From Lepus europaeus (lineage: Eukaryota; Chordata; Mammalia; Lagomorpha; Leporidae): a DNA stretch of 64,000 nucleotides. A model generated the notes under the pieces. It saw only the letters and a program-made list of their open reading frames with translations, ran no database searches and was not told where the DNA came from. The position numbers and the translations under genes are program-made. Where the stretch lies: contig NC_084850.1 of NCBI RefSeq assembly GCF_033115175.1, positions 1,673,024 through 1,737,023 of the forward strand, in the 5' to 3' direction. Positions 41,501-53,500 of the stretch are shown here, in pieces. Position 1 is the first letter of the stretch. Every line of letters begins with the position of its first letter.

Positions 41501-44500
41501 ATCTTTAAAAAAAAAGAGTTGGGAGGGAAAAGAACAATAATGACCTAGAACCCGACTAGTTGCCCTGCTCACAGTCTTAATCTACGTCTTCTCATTTGCA
41601 GCTCAAGCTCAAGCCATACTAACTGACGTGAAGATCGCCTGGATGTGCCGAGCTCTGTCATGCCTTTACAGACTTGCCACTGTGGGCTGGGTGAGACAGC
41701 CTGCCTCAATATACTCTCTCGCCATTTCTCTATTCCCCTGTCACCCTGGGATTCAGGAAAGTGCCATGGAGATGAAGAAGGGGCCCCTGGGAAGCTGGAA
41801 AGACAGATGGAACATGAAATGCAGAGCCAAGGAATGAAAGGATTGAGCATGAGAGGAAGGCAATGAGATCGTCTGCTGACCGAACACCTAGCAAGGATCA
41901 GGCATCCTTGGATCCATGTCCAGCAGAATAGTCAAGGGGAGAGAAGAACTGAAAGGGCGAGGTAAAAACAGATCTCAGGATGATCCTGCCCCCTCCCAGG
42001 ACTACCATGGGAGTAACAGGAGCCCTCCAACAGTCCCCATCCCTTGTACAATAACATCTCACCTCCTTCCCAATTGCCTTCTCTCCCTAACCTTCCAGGC
42101 CCTACAAAACCCAGCTCCTGGCCCCTCCTCAACTCATTTCCATCTGCCAACCATCCTAGCTACATTACCCTCTGCCTGGGTGCCCCTCTATCAGAGTACC
42201 AACTTCTTTTGGTTGTAAGGCAGTTTCCATAGCCCAGTAATTGACAGCATAGGCTCTGGGCTCTGACTTCCCAGGGACTAATCCCTGTTAAGCCATTTCC
42301 TGAAACCAAGAGATATTAAGAGGCTAGAGGTCACAGCAAGGCAGGTAAGGGGACAAGAAAAAACAGTCACAAGGTGCCAGAAATGAGGGAATCTGGAAAA
42401 TGATAAGTCCTGAAGGCACAAAAGCCAATGGATGACCTCCTAGGGATGAATGCTGAGTCTGGGCGCCAGATATGATCCAACAATTCCAACTTTCCATGGG
42501 CTTTTAGAAACAAAAATTGACAGAATGCTTCAAGATGGTGTATAATCTTATACTAGATTGATTGTAAAAATACACCTTCAAAACTCACGGCTGTTTTAAA
42601 ATGTGACAAAAATATTGCACAAATTCACTAGGTCTTCAAACTTGGGAACTTCTGAGAGCTACTGCAAACAGGATTTGGTGGGTCAGTGCTGTCCAGTACT
42701 GCCTTGCTCCTTGGCTTCGCTCAGAAAACTCACAGCCCCTGGTTCTTCAGGCTACTGCTGCCAGTCTCTTGCAACTACTGCCCAACCTTAGGTCACTATG
42801 GCGGAGATGAGTTATTGCCCAAATACCGCCCTTGTATGGCCATCCTGCACACAGTGCCAGAGGAACTGATCTTCCCTCTAGCAACTTTTAATTATGCTCC
42901 TCAGAGATGGTTCGTGCCTGTGAGTGACAAAAGAACCCATACCCTTCCCTCAGACCAGGTTTTCTCTGCACTTGCCCTGCGTTGGGCTTGCTCCAAAAGA
43001 GTTGATGCCATGATCCACAACTGAAACTTATGATGACCTATCCCTGCGATGCTCCCATCTGCTCTGCAGCTCTACGGCTTATTACCAGTCACACTTACAC
43101 AGTGCAGTGGGCATGCCTAGCTTGTGGTGGGCTTGTCCTGGGTTGTAACCCCTGGCCAAAAACCCTGGCTCCATCAGGCAGGAGTCCAGTGCAGCTTGGC
43201 CCTTACCTGCTGGCACAGCCCTCCGGTTCAGGTTCAAGGAGCTTCTCGGGTGCCCTGGGGCTGCCCTGCTGCTCTGGGACGCTGGGATCTGCAGGTTGCT
43301 GAGCGGGTGCAGTTGGGTCACCACGGCCTTCTCTCAGGGCTCCAGGCCTCTCCTGCCAGGCTTCTCCCACCTTGGTGGCCACACTGTTCTCACCACCAGC
43401 CACGGCGCTGAGGAAGAATGAACACCCTTATGGAGAGAGTGCCCTGAGACTCGTCCCTGCTCACCCAGCGCACGCCAGCTGGCACCTCCCACAGGCATGG
43501 AGGGGTTCACCTCCCGGGTGGTGGGGCTGAGAGCAGCAGCCAGGTACGGACCACACACCCTGGGGAGCAGTTCGTGTCCTCTTCAGAGGACCTCAGTATC
43601 ACTGCTTTCTTCTTGCTGAAAAAGGCAAGGTACACTTGATGAATTAAGGAAGTGTTAAAAGACAAAGTCTTCTTGCTGGAAAAACATTGGCATTCCTTTT
43701 CCGCTCAGTCCATTGCCATCCCCTTTTCCGTCCTTACCCGCCTCCAGCCCACCTGCCCCCTTAAAAAGGCCTGAGTCATCCAGTACTGTAGATCGTCCTA
43801 TACTCGGCCAGGCGCAGAAGGCGTTTGTCCGTGTGGAAAGGGGTTTCTCCCCTAGACTACCCTGTAAGGATAGCAGGGGGAGAAAGCCGAGGAGCAAGTC
43901 CATAGCGGCGGCGGGATTCCCAAATCAGCAGTGGACTTCACAAAGAGGGGGAAGGGCCGTGAAACCGAAGTTTGCAGGGCGGGTCTGAAGAGGAGCAGCC
44001 GGGCCCATTTGTGATCCTCGCGCACCACCTCGCGGCCAGTGTGGGCAAGGCAGCAGCAGAACCCAAGCCAACACCCATCATAGCCCGGATAACCATTTTG
44101 TTGGTTGACGGTCTAATTTCCCAAAGGGCACGGACGCCCTAGCTGATGGTTGTAGGAAATGGCGGCGTGCGCAGGCGCACTAACTACAGTCATACGCGGT
44201 GCTAGACGCAGGATCCCGGCGTGCGCTCATGCAGACGGATTGCTGCAGCCACTTTGTTTTCCGAGCTAGGAAGTCATCTTCTTTATTGCAAGATTTATTG
44301 TTATGAGTTTATATAGTTTTCATCTCATTTTTACAGATGGTAACGCTGGGTTAAGGACCCACTTGCAGCTAATAAATGATAGGATGCAACATCCCTTTTT
44401 GCCCCCATCGCTAAACTTGATCTTGTGACCGTTGCTACACTGACAGACACACTAACACTTACTGTAGTAAGTAGGCCTTATGGTGGGGTGGAAGCAGACA

Positions 44501-50500: not shown

Positions 50501-53500
50501 GTACATAGCAGAGCAGCTCCCTCGCTGCGATCTATTGAAAGTCAGCCCTCGACACAAGGGTTTGTAAAAAAAAGGAAAAAAAAAAGAATAAAAAAGAAAA
50601 CAAAAAAATTTAAAAAAAATTTAAAAAAATAGAAAACCTGGCCCTAAAATAACTTTGTAGAAGAAGCCCCAGAACCATGAGGATGGATGAGTGGCCCTCC
50701 CCACAGATTCCACCATTGCTAATCTCCTTGGGCAGTGAGACTCTTAGCTCTCTCCTCTACCATTTCTACCTTGTGTAAAGAGATTTTCACTTTAATCTGC
50801 AGAAGTGACAAGTGCTTTTTGTTTGCATTCCTGGAAACGACTGAGCTATACAAGCCCACTACATTGTAATGATCTGTTGTTTCTTTAGTATTGGAACCAG
50901 CAGGTTATGTACCTTCCAGAGAACCTTGACTTGGAAACATCCCCCTGCCCCTCAACACACACCACATGATCACCTATAGTTACAGTCACTCTTACCCTGT
51001 CACTCACGTCCCACATCACTCTCTCACGCCTTCTCAATCATGCTGCTTTCCTCTCACTATGGCCTGCTCTCTGCTTTACCTTGTCATTGTCATTCTCATT
51101 CATTCTCTCTCTGTCTCTGTGTCTGTCTCTCTCTCTCTCTCTATTTTCTCTCACTTTACACACACAAAGAGCCCTCAGCCTACCTGGGATCCTGAAGTGC
51201 ACCTGCACTCTACAAGAATGTCTTCCCTTCTGCCTCGTGTGTTGGGAATTAGGACAGACGCCTCCTCCTATCACTGTCCACCCCAGCTCCTTCAACAACA
51301 GGAATCCCATCCACACTGCTCCAGGTTCAGTGAGTCACCACAACTCACTCACAGGGCGGAAGCCCAAGCACCTTGCATATAATGTGTCAGAATTGGCATG
51401 GAGTGGGAGGGAAAATACCTCCCACCTGAGGTGCAACCACTGACAAGAAAAAAAAAAAAAAAAAAAAACCTGGCTCCAACAGGCAGGAGTCCAGTGCAGC
51501 TTGGCCCTTACCTGCTGGCACAGCCCTCCGGTTCAGGTTCAAGGAGCTTCTCGGGTGCCCTGGGGCTGCCCTGCCGCTCTGGGACGCTGGGATCTGCAGG
51601 TTGCTGAGCGGGTGCAGTTGGGTCACCACGGCCTTCTCTCAGGGCTCCAGGCCTCTCCTGCCAGGCTTCTCCCACCTTGGTGGCCACACTGTTCTCACCA
51701 CCAGCCACGGCGCTGAGGAAGAATGAACACCCTTATGGAGAGAGTGCCCTGAGACTCGTCCCTGCTCACCCAGCGCACGCCAGCTGGCACCTCCCACAGG
51801 CATGGAGGGGTTCACCTCCCGGGTGGTGGGGCTGAGAGCAGCAGCCAGGTACGGACCACACACCCTGGGGAGCAGTTCGTGTCCTCTTCAGAGGACCTCA
51901 GTATCACTGCTTTCTTCTTGCTGAAAAAAAGAAGCAGCCTCTATTTGTAATAAAGGAAGCTCAAGACAAGAGCTGCAGGCAAGTGGATGTGATATCACCC
52001 AATAACCAAGGGGAAAACATCCCATTGGTACAGTGCCTCTCTGTTTTGCTTCCATGCTGACAGTCAGTACAGATATCATAAGTGGTATTACCCACCCTAC
52101 CTGTGCCTGTAACATATACTCTCGAGCCAAACAGAGACACAGAAGGCCTAAAGAGCTCTTCTCCAAATTCTGGGAGGCAGCTGTACCGTGGACTTAATCA
52201 GAGTTCTATCCTGCCCCATGTCCTCTGTAGAAGTAAGATAATAGGGGTGTCCTCACCAAATTTTGTGACTAAAGCCAAGATTCTCCACAAAGTGCAATTT
52301 GAGGTTCACTGCAAGTTAGGGACTAATGGACTAGTAAGACTTTTTTCATCCTAGCCCTTGGTACAGGGCTACTATCATTTAGAGATGTAAGCCATCTGGG
52401 TTATGAAAAGGAAATCATAGTCAAACACCCACAGCAGGCTCACCAGTGTAATATCCTGCCAGTCTTATTCTTAGATGCTAAGTGGTTAGAGACAGGCTAG
52501 GTAATCCTGGGAGTAGCCACCACTGAGGTCTTAGAGTTTGGATTAGTTGGTTTCCCTGAAGCCCTTCCTTCTGAATGTAACTGGATTAAAGTTCTAGCAC
52601 CCCAATGCCACCACTGCCAATTCCTAACACAACCACATTCTTTACACAAAGCAGAATGTCCCCATTCTACTCCTGTACTATCTCTACTCGACTCTTCCAC
52701 TGTTTGACAGTGGTTGTCAGCACTGTGAAAATTGCCTAAAGTTTGGCTGCTAGTCATGAAGAAGGAATGCAAGACTGAAAGCCCACATTTGCAATCTAAT
52801 AAGGAAGAAAACTGCCTGTTTTGGATATGAAGTCTGGTAATAAAAGTTTAGTGTGGGCCGGCACCGTGGCTCAATAGGCTAATCCTCCGCCTTGCGGCAC
52901 CGGCACACCGGGTTCTAGTCCCCGGTCAGGGCGCCAGATTCTATCCCAGTTGCCCCTCTTCCAGGCCAGCTCTCTGCTGTGGCCAGGGAGTGCAGTGGAG
53001 GATGGCCCAAGTACTTGGGCCCTGCACCCCATGGGAGACCAGGATAAGCACCTGGCTCCTGCCATCGGATCAGCGCGGTGCGCCGGCCGCAGCGGCCATT
53101 GGAGGGTGAACCAACGGCAAAGGAAGACCTTTCTCTCTGTCTCTCTCTCACTGTCCACTCTGCCTGTCAAAAAAAAAAAAATTAAAAAAAAAAGTTTAGT
53201 GCGAAAGAGGTGACATACTTTGTTTTATTCCTGTTGGGGTTCTGCATTTAGTTTTAAGGTTTTATAGAACTGGCTTTTGACATTTATACAGCACTTTGTA
53301 CCAAGAAATGTCCTACATGCTTTATATATGCAAATCCAGTTAAACCTAACAGCAATGCTATATGACAGGAGCTATTAGTTCCATTATTCTACACATGAGG
53401 ACACTGAGGCAGAGAGGTGAGTAACATGCAGAAAGCCACACAGATACTAAGTGGCAGAACTTGGATTTGAATCCAAGCACCCAAGTCCATACTATTAGGG

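Follow-up and report, generated by a model that had tools for sequence, protein, structure and literature searches.

ZNF185 and its duplicated exon

We analysed a window of 64,000 nt from the genome of the hare Lepus europaeus, on whose minus strand lies a gene that we take to be ZNF185, with one exon present twice in a pair of near-identical blocks, A and B. All coordinates are those of this window, and gene sense is the minus strand. The human ZNF185 protein, in what we take to be its sequence, matches minus-strand stretches in gene order, at 63634, 60526, 59277, 56373, block B, block A, 39323, 38942-38784, 34761, 31521 and 26609-26481. Its first ~275 residues find no convincing match in the window (best E 0.19), as is expected if the corresponding exons fall outside it. 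At its other end, the gene is closed at 31.5 and 26.5 kb by a LIM-like stretch, which weakly matches one PDB LIM chain (E 6e-4) and for which Pfam gave no family. The blocks, their exons and the neighbouring coding stretches are as follows.

43164..43623, minus strand: block A, exon plus flanking intron, the copy nearer the 3' end of the gene; differs from block B at 2 positions; one of 2 genome matches
51469..51928, minus strand: block B, exon plus flanking intron, the 5' copy in gene sense; aligned to A; the other of 2 genome matches
43207..43407, minus strand: ZNF185 repeat exon, 3' copy, 201 bp, PEQQ; from splice sites, frame and homology to the presumed human ZNF185
51512..51712, minus strand: ZNF185 repeat exon, 5' copy, 201 bp, PERQ; from splice sites, frame and homology to the presumed human ZNF185
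56296..56373, minus strand: ZNF185 stretch upstream of the exon pair; from its match to the presumed human ZNF185; a likely donor 2 bases further on would give phase 2
39210..39323, minus strand: the ZNF185 exon that follows the pair, in frame with it; 92% over 38 aa to the presumed human ZNF185; splice sites

The two blocks lie in the same orientation, 8.3 kb apart, with 7.8 kb of unlike sequence between them. An earlier note on this DNA had described a gap-free block of 460 bp with two substitutions, 259 bp of intron included, and the alignment of 43164-43623 with 51469-51928 reproduces this exactly (460 aligned positions, 0 gaps, 2 substitutions). Since the BLAST E-value is 0.0, chance is excluded as the source of this identity. 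One difference is intronic (43174 T, 51479 A), so that 1/259 intronic positions differ (upper 95% bound 2.1%), while the other is exonic (43270 T, 51575 C, in plus-strand letters). In gene sense, the exonic difference reads CGG (R, 51575) in the 5' copy and CAG (Q, 43270) in the 3' copy, which agrees with the PERQ and PEQQ of the note. Stricter BLAST settings carry the likeness 6 bases further left (43158/51463), and lenient scoring takes it ~30 bases beyond the right edge (43652/51959), at 96.8% over 497 columns. A larger recent tandem duplication is ruled out, the high identity ending at the block edges.

When the hare assembly itself (2,930,769,371 bases, 649 contigs) was searched with the block, there were two matches, both within the window, at 1.716 and 1.724 Mb of the same contig (C43). 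That one copy is merely a misplaced assembly duplicate of the other is very unlikely: apart from their shared contig, in which the window contains no N, the copies differ at two bases, are separated by 7.8 kb and have their own flanks, that on the left of B being unique in the genome, and their own CpG-rich elements.

Each block consists of a single 201-bp minus-strand exon of phase 2-2, preceded by AG and followed by GT, and its intronic surroundings. Both exons are open and in frame and, as in duplicated cassette exons, both copies have equal phase and intact splice sites. The exon has symmetric phase, and the acceptor, the donor and 216 bp of upstream intron lie within the tract, so that transcripts including both copies, one of them or neither would stay in frame. 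The protein repeat that the exon encodes corresponds to no family in Pfam, and a scan of bacterial and archaeal contigs with a pattern of the exon peptide gave no relative among 594 pattern matches. Among the matches listed in a search of literature titles and abstracts, none concerned conversion or duplication of ZNF185 exons, which is not proof of absence, and the word ZNF185 occurs 0 times in a paper on human tandem-duplicated exons (PMC9741552).

A diverged twin element and the block edges

A self-comparison of the window, with short interspersed nuclear elements (SINEs) masked, gave four pairs in addition to a GC-rich tandem array at 12-13 kb: a 70-bp pair (14131/47062), an inverted 177-bp pair, the block pair and a pair of CpG-rich elements, one beside each block.

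43975..44254, no strand: CpG-rich element E_A, gene-upstream of block A; 67% to E_B; CpG observed/expected 0.86 in 44001-44250
53990..54280, no strand: CpG-rich element E_B, gene-upstream of block B; 67% to E_A; core words; CpG observed/expected 0.98 (250-bp bin)

E_A and E_B, paired over 43975-44237 and 53990-54255, are 67% identical in the same orientation, with identity peaks of 19-21/25 around words that we take to be CTCF-, YY1- and NRF1-like motifs. Two core words, with up to 3 mismatches allowed, match E_A and E_B alone genome-wide (reversed-pattern controls, 0), a pattern that a decayed dispersed repeat would not be expected to show. The whole of E_B as a DNA query finds itself alone; since this search misses E_A, at 67%, other whole-length relatives of similar age could escape it as well, just the two cores having been searched with mismatches. 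Taken together, these searches do not support E as a dispersed repeat. Lying inside ZNF185 introns, E_A and E_B are possibly internal promoters or insulators.

While E_A and E_B are 67% identical, the blocks are 99.6% identical, and the block introns differ at 1/259 positions, where divergence like that of E_A/E_B would lead one to expect ~33%. This would show an older duplication only if element and exon were duplicated together, as seems probable.

A second trace of older likeness is found at the left edge of the blocks.

51448..51468, no strand: A tract of 21 nt bordering block B on the left (A has AAAAAC at 43158-43163); read from the sequence
43137..43156, no strand: left flank of A, 15/20 in register with B beyond the A tract; 3/20000 random SINE-free pairs
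51425..51444, no strand: left flank of B, partner of 43137-43156; register and length tests

Past the A tract, 15/20 bases match in register, a value reached by 3/20000 random SINE-free pairs. Among seven lengths, p was 0.0002-0.008 at 15-25 bases, and 0.022 and 0.026 at 12 and 30. With the A tract trimmed, anchored extension at both edges gave a joint p of 0.005-0.018 over eight scorings. The earlier note had argued from human ZNF185 that the duplication predates the lagomorph-primate split; the twin element and the left-edge match speak for an old pair independently of the human protein, provided that element and exon were duplicated together.

Two candidate extensions of the paralogy were discarded. 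A score of 115 over the 1500-bp right flanks is due to one SINE on each side (44534-44810 and 52855-53179). A wider pair on the left (40751-41039 / 51022-51259), the best unanchored match there, whose score of 24.5 had beaten 15 shuffled-chunk nulls (maximum 20.0), falls within the range of 40 genomic pairs (top 25.5) and was dropped.

Gene conversion and other possible routes to near-identity

We favour, with some reserve, an old local duplication whose 460-bp block was later homogenised by gene conversion. A local duplication inside a ZNF185 intron would have produced two units, each made up of a CpG-rich element and, gene-downstream of it, the 201-bp repeat exon. Most of the intron in both units would since have diverged past recognition or been lost, while 460 bp around the exon would have been overwritten by interlocus gene conversion, perhaps repeatedly, in a form of concerted evolution. 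The likely step is that a break in one copy was repaired with the other, 8.3 kb away, as template, and the tract may end where A tracts of unequal length and diverged flanks interrupt the homology. From these comparisons we infer that the process was conversion, as well as its age and its possible recurrence. From 2/460 differences, and assuming rates of 2-4e-9 per site per year, the copying would be ~0.5-1.1 million years (Myr) old, with Poisson limits of ~0.07-3.9 Myr, which places the latest overwriting roughly ~0.1-4 Myr ago under these rates. The size of the block is compatible with published estimates of ~100-300 bp, with one >1 kb, for conversion tracts in rodents and of ~200 bp for the minimal efficient processing segment (PMC3924818).

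Several observations weigh against this scenario. In the same source, conversion is strongly reduced near and below 80% identity (PMC3924818), so that the block would have had to stay similar throughout. The flanks of E_A and E_B show no anchored extension, and the spacing between element and block is unequal (351 vs 2061 bp). At the left edge, anchored extension scores 0 as long as the A tract of B is left in place; taken by itself, the right edge is weak to suggestive (81/1500 and 218/4000; p 0.005-0.06); and the edge tests, including that over 20 bases, were framed after the alignment had been seen. Unanchored alignment of the 300-bp flanks, left and right, and of the 1500-bp left flank scores no better than shuffled sequence, while flanks simulated as neutral with 0.2-0.3 substitutions per copy were detectable over 300 bp in 98-100% of 60 runs. 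Since flanks that had diverged neutrally as far as E should thus be visible, either most of the old flank has been lost, or E is under constraint and the duplication older.

The lack of unanchored homology in the 300-bp flanks, given this high simulated power, is what one would expect of a recent templated re-duplication, in which the 460-bp exon cassette was copied once to a place 8.3 kb away, with no conversion. Such a copy could arise by break repair or by a replication template switch through A-rich microhomology, and any human pair would then be an independent duplication. We regard this as a serious rival, though less likely than conversion. It fits the sharp ends of the blocks, where each edge of each copy has an A run at it or beside it, and it has a parallel in human cells, in which breaks yielded templated insertions of 73-414 bp, often showing microhomology (PMC5110952). 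The last 16 bases of the block recur at 94%, 60 bp to the right of A, which under re-duplication would make A the native copy.

A precedent lies only 3 kb away. Over 177 bp, with 2 mismatches, the segment 39920-40096 repeats 40601-40777 in inverted orientation. It interrupts an old C-SINE near position 124 of the consensus and is bordered on either side by AGCGA; the sequence has two genome matches and no third. With the continuous C-SINE split by the copy, as in templated insertions, this is clearly a recent local templated insertion. Since such insertion has been active in the region, a templated 460-bp re-duplication of the exon is a real alternative. What it leaves unexplained are the two-copy CpG element beside both exons and the 15/20 in-register match at the left edge; moreover, the published insertions derive from distant places and not from nearby sequence (PMC5110952). 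Recent conversion of an older pair, as proposed by the earlier note, is still our best reading, on the strength of the twin element and the left edge. Given the weak homology of the flanks and the templated insertion so close by, it is not fully separated from recent re-duplication.

Retroposition of the LINE-1 (long interspersed nuclear element 1) type, which would make the block a class 1 templated sequence insertion polymorphism (TSIP), was rejected. On reading the block ends, we saw neither a clear target-site duplication nor, in the 30 bases of the block next to each end, an AATAAA; one lies outside, at 51949-51954, to the right of B. The long A tract is on the wrong side, preceding the block in plus orientation and reading T in gene sense.

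Comparison with human ZNF185 bears on the age of the pair. What we take to be the two human repeats are identical to each other at 55/65 residues and the window copies at 65/66, as against 37-42/64 between species. If the human letters are right, the copies cluster within species, and simple divergence dating from before the primate-lagomorph split accounts for neither pair. The earlier note had counted clustering of the copies within species, in an alignment of introns, as support for conversion; here such clustering is seen in the exon peptides, against the presumed human repeats, and it fits conversion and separate duplications alike. The same comparison makes it scarcely credible that selection alone has kept an old duplication, exon and intron, identical. 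Both exons are open and in frame, as selection would have them, yet the intron differs at 1/259 positions while the presumed human exons differ from those of the window at one third of residues or more; it is implausible that selection would be so strict within a species and not between species.

That the R/Q site escaped conversion, as the earlier note suggested, now looks weaker, the CGG/CAG change being a CpG transition at a hypermutable site in a block with 14 CpGs. Human ZNF185 presumably shares the R/Q order; this may be coincidence and was counted for neither side. A bolder version of the favoured history, which we think doubtful, is that an old pair of units had its exon and splice signals repeatedly homogenised in separate mammalian lineages, the CTCF/YY1/NRF1-like elements being free to diverge; the hypermutable R/Q site would then be the sole coding difference between the copies here.

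Related systems, meaning and other features

Published cases of interlocus gene conversion resemble the ZNF185 blocks in showing a few hundred bp of near-identity, which here too would lie within a more diverged paralogy, on the same chromosome and here in the same orientation at 8.3 kb (PMC3924818, PMC3758752). They differ in that the unit here is an exon plus intron inside one gene, with the flanking homology almost gone, and for this reason donor and recipient are indistinguishable. B7-H3 (CD276) offers a likeness of another kind, with duplicated exons within one gene and isoforms with and without the extra copy; its human V1C1 and V2C2 are 96% alike, and the duplicated exons are present in several mammals (PMC3172298). 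There, two exons and their intron encode immunoglobulin (Ig) domains, whereas in ZNF185 a single exon, close to a CpG element, encodes a repeat outside the Pfam families. In the main text of that paper, the word "conversion" appears 0 times. Class 2 TSIPs are likewise copies, a few hundred bp long, of another genomic place, with microhomology-like ends (PMC5110952). In contrast to the distant sources published for them, the source here would be the same intron, 8.3 kb off, with partially in-register flanks and an older paired element around it; the 177-bp inverted copy fits this class better than the 460-bp block does.

Gene conversion is an already known process, for which the twin element and the sharp tract make a good test case. 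If conversion is the correct explanation, a single exon rather than a whole gene evolves in concert, in a compact natural case whose tract ends can be read to the base and whose diverged twin element serves as an internal clock. It would also make parallel duplications versus one duplication plus conversion a testable choice for ZNF185 repeats across mammals, and would imply that similarity of repeats within a species tells little about the age of their duplication. Direct repeats of 460 bp, 8.3 kb apart, could mediate loss of one exon, and copy number may vary among individuals.

Proline right after the cleaved arginine is expected to hinder thrombin. In another ZNF185 exon, at 63634-63545, the window reads MTPRPGLR where human has LTPRAGLR, the human thrombin site (PMC9834212).

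What we take to be the C-SINE consensus matches the window in 48 BLAST pieces covering 12,771 bases, in keeping with lagomorph DNA, and at one C-SINE end there is a perfect 46-bp tandem duplication (44762-44856). Over the GC-rich array (12327-12942, periods 36 and 70) runs a 372-codon stop-to-stop frame on the minus strand (11952-13070). Finally, a PNMA-family gene lies on the plus strand at 14612-15930, with PNMA_N and PNMA domains in 14612-15289 and a Ma3 ribosomal frameshift signal at 15871-15930 (Rfam RF01093, 75.2 bits); its long open frame shifts at ~15.2-15.3 kb, ahead of that signal.

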